DNA of 64,000 bases from Planctomycetaceae bacterium (GTDB lineage: Bacteria > Planctomycetota > Phycisphaerae > Sedimentisphaerales > UBA12454), in NCBI GenBank assembly GCA_021371795.1, contig JAJFVK010000019.1, positions 1 to 64,000 on the forward strand, written 5' to 3'. The notes under the pieces are model-generated. The model worked only from the letters and a program-made list of their open reading frames with translations. It ran no database searches and was not told where the DNA came from. The translations under genes were made by a program, and so were the position numbers. Shown in pieces: positions 1,701-11,337 of the stretch (the first letter of the stretch is position 1; each line of letters starts with the position of its first letter).

Positions 1701-3299
1701 ATGTTAAAAAATGCTTTCTTGTTTCTAATTTTAGTGTCATTTTCAGCAGCATTCGCCGACGTTAATGTTGTTCCGCTGCCAAATTATGTGCAAATTTCTG
1801 ATGCAGGCGCATTTAATATTGACAGCAATACAATTATTGTCGCGTCTGACGAGTTGGCCGCTATCGCAAAACAATTAGATGGATATTTGTCGCCTGCACT
1901 GGGTTATCATTTAGCTGTAAAAAAAACTGTGCATCCAAATTCGATTTGTCTTGGCATAGTCGATGATAATGAACTTGGCGATGAAGGTTATTGTCTTGAT
2001 GTTAAAGCAGACGGAGTGAGTATTACAGCCAATACTTCAGCGGGATTATTTTACGGCATACAGACTTTAAGGCAGTTATTGCCTTATTATATTTTCAGTC
2101 GTGAAAAAATATGCGGCGTTGAATGGGGAATCCCGTGTCTGGCAATCCGCGATGTTCCGCGATTCAGTTGGCGAGGTATGCATCTGGATGTCAGCAGGCA
2201 TTTTATGTCTGTCGAATTTGTAAAAAAATATATCGATCTGCTGGCGGTTCATAAAATGAATCGATTTCACTGGCATTTAACAGACGACCAGGGCTGGCGT
2301 ATCGAAATTAAGAAATATCCCAAACTGACAAGCGTCGGCGCCTGGCGCGACAAATCACAAATAAGCCCCCGAAAGCAACCGCTGGTATATGAAGAGAAAC
2401 GTTACGGCGGATACTACACGCAGGAACAAATACGAGATGTTGTTCAGTATGCCAAAGAACGGTATATAGAGATTCTGCCGGAAGTGGAAATGCCCGGCCA
2501 TTGCGCTGCGGCTGTGGCTGCATATCCGCAGTTGTCCTGTCGTGGAACGGAAGGCACTGTAATGACGAAGTGGGGTTCAACTCTGGAGGTTTATTGCCCC
2601 GGCAAAGAAGAAGTGTTCAATTTTAACCAAAACGTGCTCGAAGAAGTGATGCGGCTTTTCCCATACGAATATATTCATATCGGCGGAGATGAGGTGAGAA
2701 AAGACAGATGGCGAGAATGTCCGCTGTGTCAGGCAAGAATGAAACATAAAAATCTGCAGGATGTCAACGAATTGCAGAGCTATTTTATAAAACGCATTGA
2801 AAAGAATCTGATGGCAAATAATCGCAAGCTCATCGGCTGGGATGAAATACTTGAAGGCGGTCTTGCTCCGCAGGCGACGATGATGTGCTGGCGCGACGCG
2901 AAATACGCTGTTGAAGCTATCAGGCAGGGACACGATGTTGTTATGTCGCCGACATCTCATTGCTACTTCGATCATTATCAGGGCGCCAAAGAGATTGAAC
3001 CTTCGGCCATTGGCGGATTTTTGCCGTTAAGCAAAATATATGATTATAATCCGGTTCCCGCGGAAGTGACGGCCGAACAAGTCAGACATGTGCTCGGCGT
3101 TCAGGCTAATTTGTGGACGGAGTATATTCCAACGCATAAGCAGGCGGAATATATGGCTTATCCGAGAGGTTGTGCCTTGTCTGAAGCGGGATGGACGCAG
3201 CCGGAGAAAAAAAGTTATGACAATTTTATTTTAAGACTTAGTGAACATCTTAAACGGCTTGATAGTTACGATTTGAATTATCGGCGTTTATACAATTAA
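1701..3299 (+). CDS. Beta-N-acetylhexosaminidase, glycoside hydrolase family 20, exported
   Basis: Removes terminal beta-linked GlcNAc or GalNAc from chitin oligomers or glycans by substrate-assisted catalysis. It has 532 residues: a signal peptide (1-19), an N-terminal GH20b-like domain (about 20-145) and the catalytic barrel (about 150-510). Visible motifs are HWHLTDDQGWRIE near 189, EMPGH near 260, the catalytic Asp-Glu pair in HIGGDE near 329, and a C-terminal VQANLWTEY that lines the substrate pocket in the family. A GAGG ribosome binding site precedes ATG 1701. The symporter begins 13 nt downstream, so the two are probably co-transcribed and the enzyme feeds the transporter with amino sugar. 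Confidence 0.92.
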   Translation: MLKNAFLFLILVSFSAAFADVNVVPLPNYVQISDAGAFNIDSNTIIVASDELAAIAKQLDGYLSPALGYHLAVKKTVHPNSICLGIVDDNELGDEGYCLDVKADGVSITANTSAGLFYGIQTLRQLLPYYIFSREKICGVEWGIPCLAIRDVPRFSWRGMHLDVSRHFMSVEFVKKYIDLLAVHKMNRFHWHLTDDQGWRIEIKKYPKLTSVGAWRDKSQISPRKQPLVYEEKRYGGYYTQEQIRDVVQYAKERYIEILPEVEMPGHCAAAVAAYPQLSCRGTEGTVMTKWGSTLEVYCPGKEEVFNFNQNVLEEVMRLFPYEYIHIGGDEVRKDRWRECPLCQARMKHKNLQDVNELQSYFIKRIEKNLMANNRKLIGWDEILEGGLAPQATMMCWRDAKYAVEAIRQGHDVVMSPTSHCYFDHYQGAKEIEPSAIGGFLPLSKIYDYNPVPAEVTAEQVRHVLGVQANLWTEYIPTHKQAEYMAYPRGCALSEAGWTQPEKKSYDNFILRLSEHLKRLDSYDLNYRRLYN

Positions 3300-3311
3300 C
3301 GAAAGGGATTT

Positions 3312-5126
3312 ATGTTATTGCACGCAATAGACTGGATTATTATTGGCACATACATTGTTATCAGTCTGCTTATCGGCGTTATACTTTCAAAGCGAGCCGG
3401 CAAGAATACTGACAATTTTTTCTTAAGCGGCCGCAAACTGCCGTGGTGGATTGCCGGTACGAGTATGGTCGCGACCACTTTTGCCGCTGATACGCCTTTG
3501 GCTGTAACGGAACTTGTCACGCAGAAAGGAATCGCCGGCAACTGGCTTTGGTGGAATATGGTGTTCGGCGGTATTCTTACCGTGTTTTTCTTCGCGCGTC
3601 TTTGGCGAAGGGCGGGCATTATGACAGACTGTGAATTTGTGTCGATTCGATATTCCGGCAGTGCCGCGAAATTCCTTCGCGGTTTCCGAGCAGTATATAT
3701 CGGCGTTGTTATGAATATGATTGTGATGGCGTGGGTTAATCTGGCGATGGTAAAAATTTTGGCTGTCGTGTTTCCGAATATGACATTTTTTGGAATCAGG
3801 GAATTGGCATTCGCCGGCTTTACCTTTTCAAGTCATTTTCTCGCGGTTGTCTGCCTGATGTTTTTGGTGGCTATATATTCATCAATGTCCGGGCTGATGG
3901 GCGTTTCAATAACTGACGCGTTTCAATTTACAATGGCGATGACGGGCTGCATAGTTCTGGCTGTTTATGCCGTCAAGAACGACGCAATCGGCGGAATCGC
4001 AGGACTAAAAGAAAAATTACCGCAATGGGTCTTCCATTTTACTCCGGATATTCAAAATGCGTCTGATGTTGCTGCTGGTTCGGCCGGCCTGCTGAAAATG
4101 AGCGTTACAGCATTTGTTGCTTATCTCGGCGTTCAATGGTGGTCCAGTTGGTATCCCGGCGCAGAGCCGGGCGGCGGCGGTTATGTCGCGCAGCGTATGA
4201 TGTCGGCGAAAAATGAAAAACATTCTCTTTTCGCGACCTTATGGTTCAATATCGCTAACTATGCGGTTCGTCCCTGGCCGTGGATTATTGTCGCGTTGTG
4301 TTCGCTGGTGATGTTTCCCGAACTTTCCCAGGCGGACAAGGGCAAAGGTTTTGTGATGGTTATGGTCAAAGTTTTGCCGCCGGGGTTGATAGGGCTTCTT
4401 ATCGCAGCTTTCTTTGCCGCGTATATGTCAACAATCGCATCACAGACGGTGTGGGGAACTTCATATATCATCAATGATTTGTTCCGTCCGTTTATCAAGC
4501 CAAACGCCGATGAAAAATATTATGTAATGGTTTCAAGAATTACAACGTTTCTGCTGATGGTTTTGTCGTTGTTTGTTACTTCTAAGCTCGAAACGATAAG
4601 CGGGGCGTGGAAGTTTGTGCTTGCATGCAGCGGCGGTATCGGACCGGTTTTGCTGTTTCGGTGGTTCTGGTGGCGAATTAACGCATGGTCTGAAATATCT
4701 GCAATGCTTGCTCCATATTTTATATATCCGTGGCTGCTGTACAAGGGAGTATCTTATGAATCTTCGCTGATGATTATTGTCGGCTGGTCAACAGTCGTCT
4801 GGCTGCTTGTAACATTCCTGACAAAGCCCAGCGATGAGAAGGTACTCAAGGAATTTTATGCGAAGGTTCACCCCGGCGGATTCGGCTGGAAACCGATTGC
4901 GGATAAAATGCCGGAAGTTAAAGCGGATAGCGGTTATTTTGCGCTGTTTGTAAACTGGATAGCCGGCTGTATAATGGTGCTTTGTGTACTTTTTGGAATT
5001 GGTAAACTGCTTTTTGTTGGAACTGTGCAGGGACTGGCTTATTTCGCAGTGGCATTGGTTGCAACCGGTGTTATTTATTTTAACATGTCCAAGACAAATT
5101 TTAGTGATAAAGAAGCAAGTGCATAA
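3312..5126 (+). CDS. Sodium:solute symporter (SSS family), probable sugar carrier
   Basis: Secondary transporter coupling sodium influx to uptake of a small organic solute. The 604-residue protein is a typical SSS member: it opens with a hydrophobic helix (DWIIIGTYIVISLLIGV), carries the FFLSGRKLPWW motif near residue 36, and has about 13 hydrophobic segments. SGLT/NagX-like neighbours of GH20 enzymes usually carry sugars, so the product of the upstream hexosaminidase is the likely substrate (inference from context). AAAGG lies 6 nt before ATG 3312. The gene ends the sugar module; the next 234 nt hold a new promoter and leader. Confidence 0.88.
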   Translation: MLLHAIDWIIIGTYIVISLLIGVILSKRAGKNTDNFFLSGRKLPWWIAGTSMVATTFAADTPLAVTELVTQKGIAGNWLWWNMVFGGILTVFFFARLWRRAGIMTDCEFVSIRYSGSAAKFLRGFRAVYIGVVMNMIVMAWVNLAMVKILAVVFPNMTFFGIRELAFAGFTFSSHFLAVVCLMFLVAIYSSMSGLMGVSITDAFQFTMAMTGCIVLAVYAVKNDAIGGIAGLKEKLPQWVFHFTPDIQNASDVAAGSAGLLKMSVTAFVAYLGVQWWSSWYPGAEPGGGGYVAQRMMSAKNEKHSLFATLWFNIANYAVRPWPWIIVALCSLVMFPELSQADKGKGFVMVMVKVLPPGLIGLLIAAFFAAYMSTIASQTVWGTSYIINDLFRPFIKPNADEKYYVMVSRITTFLLMVLSLFVTSKLETISGAWKFVLACSGGIGPVLLFRWFWWRINAWSEISAMLAPYFIYPWLLYKGVSYESSLMIIVGWSTVVWLLVTFLTKPSDEKVLKEFYAKVHPGGFGWKPIADKMPEVKADSGYFALFVNWIAGCIMVLCVLFGIGKLLFVGTVQGLAYFAVALVATGVIYFNMSKTNFSDKEASA

Positions 5127-5215: not shown

Positions 5216-5245
5216 TTGCATTAATTGTGTGTTTTTTTGTATAAT
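5216..5245 (+). promoter_or_regulatory. Sigma-70 promoter of the glpTQP operon
   Basis: TTGCAT (5216-5221) and a perfect TATAAT (5240-5245) are separated by 18 nt. Transcription would start near 5252, about 110 nt before glpT, leaving an untranslated leader that contains the GlpP-type terminator. Confidence 0.6.
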
Positions 5246-5278
5246 GACTCACAGTAAGCAGTTATATGATTTATGGCT

Positions 5279-5333
5279 GAGAAATTGAGAGCCGTACACT
5301 TGTCCATCGCTGGAAGAGTGTACGGCTTTTTTT
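5279..5333 (+). promoter_or_regulatory. GlpP-type antitermination leader 1 (before glpT)
   Basis: The box GAGAAATTGAGA (5279-5290) runs straight into a strong intrinsic terminator. The arms AGCCGTACAC (5290-5299) and GTGTACGGCT (5318-5327) are perfectly complementary over 10 bp, and a run of seven T ends at 5333. The same box with the same arrangement precedes the oxidoreductase operon at 8173. GlpP of Bacillus acts by antitermination at leader terminators of glp operons, so this is the probable GlpP target. A third GAAATTGAGA copy (5352-5361) overlaps the glpT start codon and may be chance. Confidence 0.75.
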
Positions 5334-5360
5334 ATGGCTATTAAGAAATAGGAAATTGAG

Positions 5361-6713
5361 ATGGATCTATCAGCGATACGTACATTTTTTGCACCGGCGC
5401 CTCATATTCCGCGATTGCCGGATGAACAGGTGAAGAGGCTGTATCCCCGTTTCCGCTGGAGCATCATTGAATCGACATTCATCGGCTATGGCACTTTTTA
5501 TCTTGTTAGAAACAATCTCGCAGTTGTTGCCAAAGATATGGAAGGCGCATTGCATTATTCGCATTCGATGATAGGCAGTATACTTGCGATATCTGCCATA
5601 ACTTATGGTATTGGCAAGTTTCTTATGGGGGCGGTTTCCGACAGAAGTGATGCCCGCAAATTTATGGCATTCGGGCTTATTCTTACTGCGATATGTAACT
5701 TGTTTTTCGGTGCTGTGAGCAATTACTATATGCACCTTTTTCTCTGGGGCTTGAATGGTTTTGTACAGGGAATGGGCTGGCCGCCATGCGGGAGGTCTCT
5801 GGGACACTGGTACAGCGTGCGTGAAAGAGGCACTATTTTCAGTACGTGGAATACTTCGCACAATGTTGGCGGGGGCATAGCCGGTGTATTAGCTGCGGAA
5901 GCTGCCGTGGCATTTGGCTGGCGAAATGCGTTTTATTTTCCTGCGTTGATAGCAATTGTGGGTGCGGTTTATTTATTTTGGAGATTGAGAGATACACCTC
6001 AATCGGTAGGACTACCATCGATTGAAGAATATAAAAATGATTTTACAGAGGCTGAAAAGCTGCATGGTACTCTTGAAAAAGAGCTAAGCACAAAAGAGCT
6101 TTTTGTAGACTATGTTCTGAAAAACAAATATATCTGGATTTTGGCAATAGCCAACTTTTTTGCATACATTGTCAGGTATAGTATGTTGGATTGGGGATGT
6201 ATGTATCTTCGTGAAGTTAAAGAAGCTACGTTGAGTGACGGCGGTATAGCGGTTTTCGCTCTTGAGTTTGGCGGGATTCCTTCTACGATACTTTTTGGCT
6301 GGCTGTCTGACAAGCTCGGGGGCAGACGCGGGATGGTTTCTGTTTTTTGTATGGTTCCAATAGTGCTTGCGTTTATTGGGATTATTTTAAATCCTGTCGG
6401 TCGTCTCTGGGTTGATATGTGGCTGCTTGTGCTTATCGGTTTTTTCATTTATCCTGTCATCAACCTGATAACAATTATCGCGCTAGATTTGTCGGGCAAA
6501 AAAGCTATAGGTACTGCCGCGGGATTTATCGGCTTGTTCGGTTATATCGCCAGAACTGTTCAGGCGGCAGGGTTTGGTACAATGTTGGATCGTTTTACTA
6601 AAACATACGGCAGTAAAACCGCGTGGGATATTATTTTGTGGTCAATTGTTGGCTGCGCTGTGCTTTCGATTATTTCGCTGGCATTTACATGGAAATTGAA
6701 ACCAAAAGTGTAA
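5361..6713 (+). CDS. glpT: Glycerol-3-phosphate transporter, MFS organophosphate:phosphate antiporter
   Basis: Exchanges external glycerol-3-phosphate for internal phosphate across the inner membrane. The 450-residue, 12-helix protein carries the OPA-family signature FSTWNTSHNVGGG near residue 160. The two phosphate-binding arginines known from E. coli GlpT have counterparts here: Arg50 in FYLVRNN and Arg about 272 in YIVRYSMLDW. The next gene is a glycerophosphodiester phosphodiesterase and then glpP, the glpTQ arrangement of Bacillus with the regulator added. Expression is probably gated by the leader terminator at 5279-5333. A sugar-phosphate carrier of the same family (UhpT/PgtP) is possible, but the context strongly favours G3P. 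Confidence 0.88.
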   Translation: MDLSAIRTFFAPAPHIPRLPDEQVKRLYPRFRWSIIESTFIGYGTFYLVRNNLAVVAKDMEGALHYSHSMIGSILAISAITYGIGKFLMGAVSDRSDARKFMAFGLILTAICNLFFGAVSNYYMHLFLWGLNGFVQGMGWPPCGRSLGHWYSVRERGTIFSTWNTSHNVGGGIAGVLAAEAAVAFGWRNAFYFPALIAIVGAVYLFWRLRDTPQSVGLPSIEEYKNDFTEAEKLHGTLEKELSTKELFVDYVLKNKYIWILAIANFFAYIVRYSMLDWGCMYLREVKEATLSDGGIAVFALEFGGIPSTILFGWLSDKLGGRRGMVSVFCMVPIVLAFIGIILNPVGRLWVDMWLLVLIGFFIYPVINLITIIALDLSGKKAIGTAAGFIGLFGYIARTVQAAGFGTMLDRFTKTYGSKTAWDIILWSIVGCAVLSIISLAFTWKLKPKV

Positions 6714-6722
6714 AGGATTAAA

Positions 6723-7568
6723 ATGATGAAAAGAAGTATATTTTGTTTGATAGTACTGTTTATTGGTTTTATAGTAAGCGGCTGTATGGCTGAAACATCA
6801 AAAAACAGTGTTTGTCCCGAAATTGTGGGCCATCGCGGCTCGTCGTTCACTGCTCCTGAAAATACACAGGCGTCTTTTATGCTTGCCTGGCAGCAGGACG
6901 CGTATGCGGCTGAATGTGATGTCTATCTGACAAAAGACAAGCAGATTATGATTATGCACGACAAGTCTGCCAAACGCACCGGCGGCGTCGATGTGAATAT
7001 TACAGATGCCAATTCAGATACTCTTGCAAAAATAGATATCGGTTCATGGAAAGACGCAAAATACAAAGGCGAGAAAATTCCCTTTCTTAAAGATGTCATC
7101 AAATCAATTCCCGAAGGCAGAAAACTTATTATCGAAGTGAAAAGCGGTACTGAAATTCTGCCTTATCTGGAAGAAATAATAAAGAAAAGCGGCAAAAGAA
7201 AACAATTAGAAATAATTTCCTTTAATTTCGATGTTGCCCTCGGCTGCAAAAAGCTGATGCCGGATATTCCGTCATATTGGCTTATAACCACTGAACAAAA
7301 CAAGGAAACCAAACAGCCGATACCGCACAGTTTGAAGGATGTTGACAAAGTCAAAGCCGCGGGGCTTGACGGTATAGATTCGCATTACGCGGGCGTTACA
7401 AAAGAATTCGCAGACAAACTTCACGCTGATGGTATGAAGCTGTATGTCTGGACGGTTGATGAATTAGCTGACGCACAGAAAATGAAAGATATGGGTGTTG
7501 ACGGAATAACTACCAATAAGCCTGACGTTATGCTGGAGTATTTTAAAAATCAGAAAGAAGCCAAATAA
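6723..7568 (+). CDS. glpQ: Glycerophosphodiester phosphodiesterase, lipoprotein
   Basis: Hydrolyses glycerophosphodiesters such as deacylated phospholipid head groups to an alcohol and glycerol-3-phosphate, the substrate of the upstream transporter. It has 281 residues. A lipobox (FIVSGC, Cys21) predicts a membrane-anchored lipoprotein on the periplasmic side. Catalytic and metal-binding motifs of the GDPD family are complete: GHRGSSFTAPENT from residue 36, AECDVYLTKD near 62 and MHDKSAKRTGG near 78. AAGGA precedes the start; ATG 6726, one codon later, is equally possible. The stop codon overlaps the glpP start by 1 nt, which indicates translational coupling. Confidence 0.92.
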   Translation: MMKRSIFCLIVLFIGFIVSGCMAETSKNSVCPEIVGHRGSSFTAPENTQASFMLAWQQDAYAAECDVYLTKDKQIMIMHDKSAKRTGGVDVNITDANSDTLAKIDIGSWKDAKYKGEKIPFLKDVIKSIPEGRKLIIEVKSGTEILPYLEEIIKKSGKRKQLEIISFNFDVALGCKKLMPDIPSYWLITTEQNKETKQPIPHSLKDVDKVKAAGLDGIDSHYAGVTKEFADKLHADGMKLYVWTVDELADAQKMKDMGVDGITTNKPDVMLEYFKNQKEAK

Positions 7569-8125
7569 TGAGCGATGCGGATAAAAAAGACGTAATTATC
7601 GCGGCAGTGAGCTCGGTGGAAAAATTAGATGCGGCGATTGCTTCCGGCTGTAAAACTCTTTTCCTGCTGACCGGTAATGTGTTTAATCTTCATGGGTTGA
7701 TTGAAAAAATACACAAAGCTGATAAGAAAGTTTATGTCGATATTGATTTCATTGAAGGTTATGGCAAAGACGTTGTGTTTTTGGAATACCTGCATCAGGT
7801 GTTAAAACCGGACGGGATTATTACGACGCGCGGGAATTTAATAAAAAAAGCGAAGAGTCTTGGTCTTTTCGCAGTGCAGCGGATTTTTGTATTTGATTCG
7901 ATGTCGCTCGATTCCGGCATAGATTCCGTGCAGAATATAAAACCCGATGCGGTGGAGATATTGCCGGGTATTATGCCGAGAATTATACAGAAAGTCCGTG
8001 AAAAGACGAAGCTTCCCGTGATAAGCGGCGGGTTAATATCTGAAAAAGAAGATGTTGATGCTGCGGTAAATGCAGGCGCTATTGGAATTTCCACCGGCAA
8101 TATAAATCTTTGGAATTCGTATTAG
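7568..8125 (+). CDS. glpP: Glycerol-3-phosphate responsive antiterminator GlpP
   Basis: RNA-binding regulator that, in Bacillus, prevents termination in glp leaders when glycerol-3-phosphate is bound. The 185-residue protein is full family length, a single TIM-barrel-like domain with the conserved segments FLLTGNV near residue 33, DIDFIEGYGKD near 58, ITTRGNLIKKAK near 80, VEILPGIMP near 130 and VISGGLI near 150. It is the last gene of glpTQP, so its own expression sits behind leader 1, giving positive feedback. The second matching leader terminator begins 47 nt after its stop codon. No G3P repressor of the GlpR type is visible in the window, so antitermination is the likely control. Confidence 0.92.
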   Translation: MSDADKKDVIIAAVSSVEKLDAAIASGCKTLFLLTGNVFNLHGLIEKIHKADKKVYVDIDFIEGYGKDVVFLEYLHQVLKPDGIITTRGNLIKKAKSLGLFAVQRIFVFDSMSLDSGIDSVQNIKPDAVEILPGIMPRIIQKVREKTKLPVISGGLISEKEDVDAAVNAGAIGISTGNINLWNSY

Positions 8126-8172
8126 TAATAAGGGAATACTGTTTTAATAAAAAGTAAATAACACTTTAGGTC

Positions 8173-8239
8173 GAGAAATTGAGAACCGTATAGTGTTATC
8201 CGCAATGAAAGTTGCGTGATAGCGTTATACGGTTTTTTT
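8173..8239 (+). promoter_or_regulatory. GlpP-type antitermination leader 2 (before the GlpA-like gene)
   Basis: The box GAGAAATTGAGA (8173-8184) is identical to that at 5279. It leads into a long hairpin: AACCGTATA (8184-8192) pairs with TATACGGTT (8226-8234), with further pairing inward and an inner CGCAA/TTGCG stem (8201-8205, 8212-8216), followed by seven T (8233-8239). The loop and inner stem differ from leader 1, so the shared part is only the box and the base of the terminator stem, as expected for a protein-binding site. No clear promoter was found between glpP and this element, so it may gate read-through from the glpTQP transcript. Confidence 0.75.
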
Positions 8240-8263: not shown

Positions 8264-9688
8264 ATGTACGACATTGCGATTATTGGCGGCGGAATCACAG
8301 GCTGCTTTATAGCTCGGCAGTTGAGCCGATATGAGTTGAAGACTGTAATATTGGAAAAGAACGACGATGTTGCCGATGAGACGACAAAAGCCAACAGCGG
8401 TATAGTTCACTCCGGCTATGACGCCAAGCCGGGCACACTCAAGGCGGAACTCAACAGACTCGGCAATCCGATGTTTGAGCAGGTTTGCAGCGATTTGGAT
8501 GTTGCGTTTCAAAGAAACGGGTCATTAACGATTGCGACAAACGATGAGGAAACGGCCTTTTTAAGGGAACTTTACGAAAGAGGTCTGGCGAATAAAATTC
8601 CGCAAATATCATTAATCTCAAGCGATGTGATTCAGAAGATTGAGCCTAATCTTAATCATAATGTACAGTGCGCTCTGCTTGCCGGAACGGCAGGCATTGT
8701 TGACCCGTTCGGGCTTGCAATCGCGCTGGCGGAAAATGCCGTTGATAACGGCGCAGAATTGAAACTCCAAACGCAGGTTACAGGCATCAGTCTGCGGAAT
8801 GGCGTTTACGAACTGCAAACTGACAACGGTGTTTATCGGGCAAAATATGTGATTAATTGTGCAGGCGTGCATGCTGATAAAGTGAACGAATTATTGTGTC
8901 CGGCTTCTTTCAGGATTGTGCCGCGAAAGGGCGAATATCTGGTTTACGACAAGAAATGCGCAAGTTTTGTAACCCGTGTTATATTTCAATGTCCGTCATC
9001 AAAAGGCAAAGGCGTATTGGTTTCGCCGACAGCACACGGCAATCTTTTGGTTGGTCCTAATTCAACAGAAATCTCGGACAAAGACGATGTTGCGACAACG
9101 CCTTGCGGAATTGAGGAAATTCTTTCTGTCGCGGCCAAAAGCGTTGAAAAGCTGCCGAACCTGCCGATAACGAATTTCGCGGGTCTGCGGGCAACGGCTG
9201 ATACAAACGATTTTATTATCGAAGAGCTCAAAACTCATAAAGGTTTTGTAAATGTCGCCGGTATTGAATCGCCGGGGCTGACGGCATCGCCTGCGATAGC
9301 GGAATATGTGATAGAAATTTTGAAATCTTCCGGATTGCAGTTGAAAGAAAACCCAAAATTTAATCCGAAGCGCAAGCCTATGATACATTTTATGGAGCTT
9401 ACAGACGCACAGAGAAATGAATTGATTAACAAAGACAGGCGTTTCGGCAGGATTATATGCAGATGTGAAAACATAACGGAAGGCGAAATCGTTGATGCGA
9501 TTCATCGCAACGCAGGCGCTCGCAGCGTTGACGGCGTAAAACGCAGAATTCGCGCGGGTATGGGACGCTGCCAGGGCGGTTTTTGTTCGCCGAGAGTGAT
9601 TGAAATTCTTGCAAGAGAACTCGGCAAAGATGAAACCGAAATTTTAAAGGACGGCAGGGGAACATATATTACAACCGGAAAGAATTAA
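8264..9688 (+). CDS. GlpA-like FAD-dependent glycerol-3-phosphate dehydrogenase with BFD iron-sulfur domain
   Basis: Probable flavin subunit oxidising glycerol-3-phosphate to dihydroxyacetone phosphate. The FAD-binding GGGITG motif lies at residues 8-13, the DAO-fold domain covers about residues 1-370, and a C-terminal Fer2_BFD-like domain has a C-R-C pair near residue 406 and CQGGFC near 445 as [2Fe-2S] ligands. I start at ATG 8264 because AAAGG (8256-8260) gives a proper spacing; the frame also opens at GTG 8252. Leader 2 lies just upstream and two partner genes follow at 2- and 3-nt gaps. This three-gene set (GlpA-like, second oxidoreductase, DUF1667) occurs in anaerobes such as clostridia and Thermotoga. 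The symbol is withheld because close relatives with other 2-hydroxy substrates exist. Confidence 0.8.
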   Translation: MYDIAIIGGGITGCFIARQLSRYELKTVILEKNDDVADETTKANSGIVHSGYDAKPGTLKAELNRLGNPMFEQVCSDLDVAFQRNGSLTIATNDEETAFLRELYERGLANKIPQISLISSDVIQKIEPNLNHNVQCALLAGTAGIVDPFGLAIALAENAVDNGAELKLQTQVTGISLRNGVYELQTDNGVYRAKYVINCAGVHADKVNELLCPASFRIVPRKGEYLVYDKKCASFVTRVIFQCPSSKGKGVLVSPTAHGNLLVGPNSTEISDKDDVATTPCGIEEILSVAAKSVEKLPNLPITNFAGLRATADTNDFIIEELKTHKGFVNVAGIESPGLTASPAIAEYVIEILKSSGLQLKENPKFNPKRKPMIHFMELTDAQRNELINKDRRFGRIICRCENITEGEIVDAIHRNAGARSVDGVKRRIRAGMGRCQGGFCSPRVIEILARELGKDETEILKDGRGTYITTGKN

Positions 9689-9690
9689 AT

Positions 9691-10977
9691 ATGATAAATG
9701 CAGTCAGTGAAAATAAATTGTCTTATGATGTCGTGGTTATCGGCGGCGGGCCGGCAGGATTGGCCGCGGCGATAGAAGCCAGAAAAAACGGCATCGAAAA
9801 AATTCTGCTGCTCGAACGCGACAGGGAACTGGGCGGTATTTTGCAGCAGTGCATTCATAACGGTTTCGGCCTGCATATTTTCAAGAAGGAATTAACCGGC
9901 CCGGAATATGCGGAAAATTTTATAAATGAGCTGAAGTGTTTAAATATAGAATATATGCTCGATACGATGGTTCTCGATGTCAGCAAAACGCGAGTCATTA
10001 CGGCGGTTAATCCTGCGAAAGGTCTGCTGAAGATTCAGGCAGGGGCGGTAATTCTCGCGATGGGATGCAGAGAACGCACACGCGGAGCGCTTTGTATCGC
10101 CGGAACAAGACCGTCCGGCGTTTTCACAGCAGGTGCCGCGCAGAGATTGGTGAACATCGAAGGCTGTATGGTAGGAAAGAAAATCGTAATTCTCGGCTCC
10201 GGCGACATAGGTTTGATTATGGCGCGAAGACTTACATTGGAAGGTGCGAAAGTTGAGGCTGTGCTTGAGGTGATGCCGTATCCAGGCGGACTGACTCGCA
10301 ATATCGTGCAGTGTTTGCAGGATTTCGATATTCCGCTGCTTCTTAGCCATACCGTAGTGAATGTTTACGGACGCAAACGCGTTGAAGGCGTTGATATTGC
10401 GCAAGTGGACAAAAGCCGCAAAGTAATACCCGGCACAACAAGGCATATCGAATGCGATACAATGCTGCTGTCGGTGGGATTGATACCTGAAAACGAACTT
10501 TCATCGAATTGCGGTATAACGCTTGATGCCGTGACGGCAGGGCCGATAGTCGATGAAAAAATGCAGACCAGTATCGATGGAGTTTTCGCGTGCGGAAATG
10601 TCGTGCACGTTCATGATTTGGTTGATTATGTTACCGACGAGAGCAGAAGAGCCGGCAAAAGCGCCGCTGAATATGTTCGATGCGATTCAACGTATACGGT
10701 AACTAAAATCAAAGCGGTTGCTGACAAGAAAGTGCGATATGTTGTTCCGCAAATAATTCGGCTGAATGGTGAAAAAGGCGATTTGGAATTTTTCCTTCGG
10801 AGTCAGGATGTCTATTATGACGCGTCAGTCGTTATCAGTATGGATGGCAAACAGATTAAAACTATAAAGAAGAAACATCTTGTGCCCGGCGAAATGCAGC
10901 ACATTAAACTCGAAAGAAAATCTTTGCTGCCGGTGCACTCTGGAAGTTCAACTATCTCGATATCAATTGAAAGTTAG
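9691..10977 (+). CDS. NAD(P)/FAD-dependent oxidoreductase, partner of the GlpA-like subunit
   Basis: A 428-residue pyridine-nucleotide-disulfide-type flavoprotein. The FAD dinucleotide fold is VVVIGGGPAGLAAAIEA (about residues 15-31), a second dinucleotide fold is IVILGSGDIGLIMARRL near 166, and the FAD-closing GVFACGNVVHVHD lies near 295. A C-terminal beta-rich domain (about 340-428) follows. It probably passes electrons from the GlpA-like subunit to NAD or to an electron carrier. It begins 2 nt after its partner and ends 3 nt before the DUF1667 gene, so the three proteins are probably made together as one complex. It resembles the electron-transfer rather than the membrane-anchor subunits of E. 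coli GlpABC. The exact electron acceptor cannot be read from sequence. Confidence 0.8.
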   Translation: MINAVSENKLSYDVVVIGGGPAGLAAAIEARKNGIEKILLLERDRELGGILQQCIHNGFGLHIFKKELTGPEYAENFINELKCLNIEYMLDTMVLDVSKTRVITAVNPAKGLLKIQAGAVILAMGCRERTRGALCIAGTRPSGVFTAGAAQRLVNIEGCMVGKKIVILGSGDIGLIMARRLTLEGAKVEAVLEVMPYPGGLTRNIVQCLQDFDIPLLLSHTVVNVYGRKRVEGVDIAQVDKSRKVIPGTTRHIECDTMLLSVGLIPENELSSNCGITLDAVTAGPIVDEKMQTSIDGVFACGNVVHVHDLVDYVTDESRRAGKSAAEYVRCDSTYTVTKIKAVADKKVRYVVPQIIRLNGEKGDLEFFLRSQDVYYDASVVISMDGKQIKTIKKKHLVPGEMQHIKLERKSLLPVHSGSSTISISIES

Positions 10978-10980
10978 ACA

Positions 10981-11337
10981 ATGAATAATAAAGAAATGAT
11001 ATGTATTGTATGTCCGATGGGGTGTCGTATGACGGTGTCTGTTAATGGCGAAGTTTGTTCTGTTGATGGTAATAAGTGCGACAGGGGCCAAAAGTACGCA
11101 ACTGATGAGACGACTAATCCGCTGCGTACGGTAACATCAACTGTCAGGATTGCCAACGCCGAAATTAGAAGGCTTCCGGTAAAAACTGTACAGGCATTTC
11201 CAAAAGGTAAAATGTTTGAGTTGATGAGTGTGTTAAAACAGGTGGAAGTCAAGACGCCGGTAAAGATGGGGGACGTAATACTGCAAAATGCACTGGGTAC
11301 CAATATAGATGTCGTGGCATCGCGCACCGTTAAGTAG
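10981..11337 (+). CDS. DUF1667 cysteine-rich protein of the GlpA-like complex
   Basis: A 118-residue protein with an N-terminal cysteine cluster (CIVCPMGC, then VCSVDGNKCDRG, residues 8-37) that looks like an iron-sulfur or zinc site. The remainder is a small beta-rich domain containing VKTVQAFPKGKMFELM. This matches DUF1667, found almost always next to the two oxidoreductases encoded here, so it is presumably a third subunit with an electron-transfer role (inference from conserved neighbourhood; no function is established). Its stop codon lies inside the hairpin at 11332-11362 that closes the operon. Confidence 0.8.
   Translation: MNNKEMICIVCPMGCRMTVSVNGEVCSVDGNKCDRGQKYATDETTNPLRTVTSTVRIANAEIRRLPVKTVQAFPKGKMFELMSVLKQVEVKTPVKMGDVILQNALGTNIDVVASRTVK

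Follow-up and report, generated by a model that had tools for sequence, protein, structure and literature searches.

Two leaders of a planctomycete glp operon with a purine-loop hairpin that shares a strand with the terminator, a probable target of GlpP

A stretch of 64,000 nucleotides from a Planctomycetaceae bacterium (contig JAJFVK010000019.1, positions 1 to 64,000; hereafter the window) contains a glp operon with two leaders. Each leader is very probably a transcription attenuator controlled by GlpP, where GlpP with bound glycerol 3-phosphate (G3P) would hold a purine-loop hairpin so that the polymerase passes. The order is element 1-glpT-glpQ-glpP-element 2-glpA-like gene-second oxidoreductase gene-DUF1667 gene. 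The GlpP protein and its antitermination type of control are already known. In Bacillus, GlpP together with G3P lets RNA polymerase through leader terminators, and the glpD, glpFK, and glpTQ leaders of B. subtilis are all three described as having a GlpP binding site as well as a terminator (PMC9604022). A review states that GlpP-G3P binds the antiterminator (PMC7430163). As far as the searches reach, the occurrence in planctomycetes, the covarying consensus and the phylogenetic reach appear to be new, as does an RNA element defined by covariation. The hairpin element was found neither in Rfam nor in the literature searched, which was covered as passages of PMC9604022, PMC3997798, PMC7430163, PMC2965389, PMC3750489, PMC6225680, PMC2864571, and PMC3766115, with the original Bacillus GlpP papers lying outside this coverage.

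The 12-mer GAGAAATTGAGA is found at 5279-5290 and 8173-8184, both on the forward strand. A preliminary description of this DNA had reported the two copies as each fused to an intrinsic terminator with seven T, and both the coordinates and the terminators were confirmed. What had not been described is that the box, which reads GAGA-AATT-GAGA, is the purine loop of a hairpin, that the stem has changed in a compensatory manner between the copies, from GGC/GCC at site 1 to GGT/ACC at site 2, and that conservation elsewhere does not extend to the exact 12-mer. In the RNA the two sites have the form GGCU-GAGAAAUUGAG-AGCC and GGU-cGAGAAAUUGAGA-ACC, respectively. The DNA of site 2 reads GGT-c-GAGAAATTGAGA-ACC, where 8169-8171 pairs with 8185-8187, and an outer helix encloses this inner stem (Table 1). 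In both leaders the 3' strand of the hairpin is identical to the 5' strand of the terminator, and the two folds are therefore mutually exclusive. The full-length leader folds into the terminator, and an RNA that stops short of the far terminator arm adopts the hairpin (-8.0 kcal/mol for hairpin 1 and -12.1 kcal/mol for hairpin 2). All of this can be read from the sequence of the two leaders. The switch between the two structures folds in six planctomycete leaders, although to a varying degree; at the second site of one of them (L090) a 44-nt intermediate favours a different pairing.

The window contains two exact copies of the 12-mer. When up to two mismatches are allowed there are 10 matches compared to 8.57 expected, and such loose matches are thus uninformative. 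Three exact copies are found in the 2.85-Mb genome, and none of a reversed control pattern. The third copy lies inside an mnmG-like coding frame and was rejected as a member of the regulon. Also rejected were a chance repeat and the view that conservation concerns the 12-mer in its exact form, the copies in other planctomycetes being GAGATCATGAGA, GAGAAAATGAGA, GAGACCATGAGA, and GAGAAAAAATGAGA.

A scan rule was formulated that demands GAG[AT]-N2-6-GAG[AT], a stem of 3 bp or longer that includes two GC pairs, and a terminator over the shared strand. It was applied to 33 GlpP loci, including three planctomycete loci; the sources of the others were a plasmid collection (11 of 40 records taken) and genome contigs (19 loci), and a Listeria locus was fetched separately. 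In 25 of the 33 loci, 36 elements were found, compared to three in total in 20 dinucleotide-shuffled sets. Without the stem demand the number is 38, so that 36 of 38 have the stem, as against three of 17 in the shuffles. A looser rule adds candidates in three loci (L013, L019, and L039). Because much of the first set had gone into shaping the rule, a hold-out was made of 40 clostridial GlpP loci, mostly the best-scoring, from the 72 of 199 genomes with GlpP over the cut-off; one genome (G575) was omitted as the first set already contained its locus. With the rule unchanged, 37 elements were found in 28 of the 40 loci (39 without the stem demand), and ten shuffled sets gave zero or one each. 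Twenty control stretches lacking GlpP (257 kb, some of them short) gave no element (one without the stem demand), and the other planctomycete loci (136 kb) and the rest of the window (50 kb) contained none. The element, with its covarying stem, GAGA-N2-6-GAGA loop and terminator, lies close to genes for GlpP in Bacillota, Fusobacteriota, Thermotogota, Actinomycetota, and Escherichia coli, and this linkage across phyla is evident from the sequences. The 12-mer had been proposed as the RNA recognition element of a planctomycete GlpP. The boxes do mark a GlpP-linked element, in the loci counted above with all three planctomycete GlpP loci among them, but the unit is the hairpin with its purine loop and covarying stem rather than the 12-mer, nor is it confined to planctomycetes.

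A covariation analysis, which the preliminary description had suggested as a check, shows that the stem covaries. In 39 distinct elements, 76.1% of the cells of six pairs are paired compared to 56.0% in shuffled alignments, 54 cells are changed on both sides compared to 21.8, and the covariation score is 0.600 compared to 0.225. None of 500 shuffles reaches these values, and slid registers give at most 19 cells and a score of 0.220. In the hold-out, the stem has 4 bp or more in 28 of 35 cases, while swapping the 3'-flanks gives a mean of 10.6 and a maximum of 18 (500 swaps). These results bear on the possibility that GlpP binds the GAGA-N-GAGA sequence as a single strand, in the manner of HutP or TRAP, and covers the beginning of the terminator stem with no antiterminator hairpin being formed. 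The GAGA pair varies least of all parts, GAG being invariant in both loop halves in the 39 rows, although these rows had been found by that motif, and some stems are of 3 bp only. Nevertheless, the arms covary far above the controls, the inner three pairs are intact in 39 of 39 rows (these having been chosen and anchored on pairing) while the outer three are broken in 15 to 23 rows, and in each of three planctomycetes the second site has an outer helix, as ATAACAC/GTGTTAT in L090 and AACACT/AGTGTT in L091. Single-strand binding is therefore considered unlikely. We infer that GlpP-G3P would bind the purine-loop hairpin itself.

The specificity of the element within whole genomes was assessed using a model, R2, built from 12 rows with mainly GGC stems, which under-scores other stems. 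It replaced a model based on an N-padded alignment (R1), which was poor, giving 14 matches at E up to 1 and missing most known sites; MAFFT on the natural sequences put the arms out of register. In the own genome, site 1 (31.7 bits) and site 2 (28.0 bits) are the top two R2 matches, the next one having 20.1 bits. Among 58 relatives, hits of at least 25 bits were found in G431 (28.4), G410 (26.5), and G407 (25.0); in none of these is the match followed by a T run, and the genomes are not listed with a GlpP match. The two sites of G438, one of the two relatives that encode GlpP, score only 18.5 and 17.4, and R2 thus misses some true elements. At E up to 0.3 R2 gave 17 hits in ten records. Among six new loci inspected, L109, L111, and L112 have box and terminator, while L114, L117, and L102 were rejected as not element-like.

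The genes behind the elements also point to GlpP. The next frame after 43 sites belongs to DAO (17), MIP (13), MFS (six), FGGY (two), SDR (two), GDPD (one), or others (two), so that in 41 of 43 cases it is glp-like (DAO, MIP, FGGY, GDPD, or MFS) or SDR. For the held-out elements, 29 of 34 next frames are DAO (20), MIP (seven), or FGGY (two), and five are others. One frame among these 34 is RuBisCO-like and two have DUF6905. One element (L017:13036) precedes a 1141-aa frame, not a glp gene, with what appear to be CBM9 and 3-keto-disaccharide hydrolase domains. Tandem elements are found before one glpF-like gene in L178 (8439 and 8518, 79 nt apart) and likewise in L179 (8407 and 8500, 93 nt apart). 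In a Planococcus plasmid, GGGT-gcacacagagag-ACCT followed by a terminator lies between glpP and the gene of an ABC transporter substrate-binding protein (L019:8635; looser rule only).

Antiterminator hairpins are also used by the BglG/SacY and ANTAR families, and another protein of one of these types might be thought to read the hairpins here. The elements track glpP and glp genes, though, and CAT_RBD has no match in the own genome, the control search being positive elsewhere, in four of 14 cases; this alternative is very improbable. An ANTAR-domain search of the own genome gave no match, the control search also being silent everywhere. Still less credible is a small riboswitch that binds G3P directly, to which the leader position and the mutually exclusive folds would be suited: the element is only 25-45 nt, its presence follows the glpP gene, and Rfam gives no match in the window and, in seven GlpP loci, just an unrelated sok match.

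The two structures could also be ordinary terminators, the first ending the symporter gene and the second ending glpP, with a box that is shared by chance or duplication. Both are indeed located downstream of genes on the same strand. The compensatory stem change, the identical layout in two other planctomycetes, the enrichment in the hold-out and the empty control stretches all speak against this, and hairpin 1 begins 146 nt past the symporter stop, behind a promoter-like sequence; such an explanation is extremely unlikely. The promoter-like site was seen before element 1 only, and an automatic promoter scan of the window, with 40 hits compared to 26.6 in shuffles, did not list it and gave none useful at either leader.

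Several points weigh against control of the leaders by GlpP through the hairpin. Eight of the 33 loci in the first set and 12 of the 40 held-out loci have no element in the flanks examined, among them three of four Fusobacterium loci, and the separately fetched Listeria locus has none either. The alignment rows were anchored on the paired arms, which gives a bias towards structure. In the first set the swap test is weak (20 of 36 compared to a mean of 12.5 and a maximum of 20), because most stems are GGC/GCC. The comparison with the B. subtilis leaders was made on their published description.

The features of the locus are collected in Table 1. The match of GlpP to the Pfam profile is full length (positions 1-173 of 173), and the protein resembles the solved GlpP proteins 3kts (E 1e-34) and 1vkf (E 3.6e-17). 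The glpT-like protein is 72-74% identical to those encoded at the equivalent position in L090 and L091. Upstream of the operon, the 532-aa frame is family 20 hexosaminidase-like as judged by eye.

Table 1. Genes and predicted RNA structures of the glp region, with positions in the window
Feature	Position	Strand	Details
SSF symporter gene and 532-aa frame	1701-5126		upstream of glp operon; Pfam for symporter
Promoter-like TTGCAT-18-TATAAT	5216-5245	+	upstream of element 1; by eye; -35 matches 3/6 only
Predicted antiterminator hairpin 1	5272-5296	+	TATGGCT / loop GAGAAATTGAG / AGCCGTA; 7-bp stem
Intrinsic terminator 1	5289-5333	+	fold -26.7 kcal/mol, z -7.6; T run 5327-5333
glpT-like MFS transporter gene	5361-6713	+	Pfam MFS_1 3.8e-55
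glpQ-like glycerophosphodiester phosphodiesterase gene	6723-7568	+	Pfam GDPD 3.1e-42
glpP, G3P-responsive antiterminator protein, 185 aa	7568-8125	+	Pfam PF04309 214.8 bits, cut-off 27
Predicted antiterminator hairpin 2	8158-8199	+	outer helix ATAACACT/AGTGTTAT (8158-8165 with 8192-8199), inner GGT/ACC
Intrinsic terminator 2	8181-8239	+	fold -31.2 kcal/mol, z -9.6; T run 8233-8239
glpA-like FAD oxidoreductase gene with BFD [2Fe-2S] domain	8264-9688	+	Pfam DAO 2.8e-71, Fer2_BFD 1.2e-16
Second FAD/NAD oxidoreductase gene, glpABC-like set	9691-10977	+	Pfam Pyr_redox_2 5.3e-32
DUF1667 small protein gene, glpABC-like set	10981-11337	+	Pfam PF07892 1.2e-30

The emerging RNA would form the short hairpin with the GAGA-N4-GAGA loop, the 3' strand of which doubles as the first strand of the terminator. 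Without G3P the far more stable terminator would prevail, and transcription would halt before glpT and again before glpA. When GlpP-G3P grips the hairpin, the shared strand would be kept off the terminator and the RNA polymerase would continue. The direction of control, where GlpP switches the genes on, is taken from Bacillus GlpP and is probably the same here. GlpT would import the inducer G3P and GlpQ would free G3P from glycerophosphodiesters, making the circuit self-reinforcing until GlpABC consumes G3P. The positive feedback on glpP that had been predicted agrees with the gene order, since glpP is located behind element 1 and GlpT would bring in the inducer. The serial checkpoint between uptake and oxidation genes is plausible. 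It requires that transcription continue from glpP into glpA, and a separate glpA promoter is possible; the distance from the glpP stop to hairpin 2 is only 32 nt in the window and about 100 nt in two planctomycete relatives, and no clear promoter was seen.

GlpP over the Pfam cut-off is found in one of 392 Planctomycetota, the own genome, and in three of 198 relatives, namely the own genome, G438, and G449. The latter two have the layout element-glpT-glpP-element-glpABC, without glpQ between glpT and glpP. The leaders of glp genes in relatives had been proposed as a place to search, and the element with its terminator is present in both these genomes, though not as the exact 12-mer. DUF1667 is found in five of the 198 relatives, the three GlpP genomes and two without GlpP over the cut-off (G409 and G497). 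In G409 no element lies upstream of the glpABC operon, and the region carries a gene that by sequence, with no profile run, is GntR-like; the contig of G497 stops within the operon. A GlpP tree groups the three planctomycete proteins in a single clade (100/100), whose long branch falls among rows from Bacillota and Fusobacteriota. None of six other genomes of the genus has GlpP over the cut-off, and this patchy spread suits a horizontal gain of GlpP by the planctomycetes, with loss as the alternative. A GlpP relative (40.8% identity) is encoded at 6728-7276 of MT835755.1, a record of 19.4 kb labelled 'Bacteriophage sp.' that comes from human faeces; a search of a phage collection with GlpP gave five records.

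In E. coli two divergent elements (L018:14117-14145 on the reverse strand and L018:14290-14318 on the forward strand) are located before ygcW (SDR) and yqcE (MFS), about 5.6 kb from a GlpP paralogue, presumably YgcP. The stretch is present in 5019 of 5426 E. coli genomes.

The operon resembles the B. subtilis GlpP system in having a GlpP-family protein, genes for G3P and glycerophosphodiesters, and a leader terminator. It differs in its planctomycete host, in its glpABC-type dehydrogenase, in having glpP within the controlled operon, and in the second element between glpP and glpA. As for the ribonucleic antiterminator (RAT) sites of BglG, SacY, and LicT, a hairpin that would be stabilised by a protein shares a strand with the terminator, but the protein family is different, CAT_RBD is lacking in the own genome, and the single purine loop contrasts with the RAT structure. 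The antiterminator hairpins of the ANTAR proteins EutV and NasR also overlap terminators; ANTAR sites are, however, two-hairpin motifs, whereas here there is one hairpin with a GAGA-N-GAGA loop.

On balance, we favour the view that GlpP proteins in general act on one uncatalogued RNA family, with a GAGA-N2-6-GAGA loop, a freely covarying stem and terminator overlap, and that this holds from Planctomycetota to Bacillota, Fusobacteriota, Thermotogota, Actinomycetota, and E. coli. In that case ygcW and the MFS gene yqcE would be regulated through the element by the uncharacterised E. coli paralogue, and the planctomycetes would have gained the protein and its RNA targets together, arranged as a serial operon with two gates. 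To our knowledge, GlpP is a small protein with no recognised RNA-binding domain. The consensus hairpin, covarying across phyla, would be a small and direct target for binding, structural, and mutational work on how GlpP reads RNA. It would also enable annotation of GlpP regulons, and may suggest for the E. coli paralogue a first function that can be put to the test.

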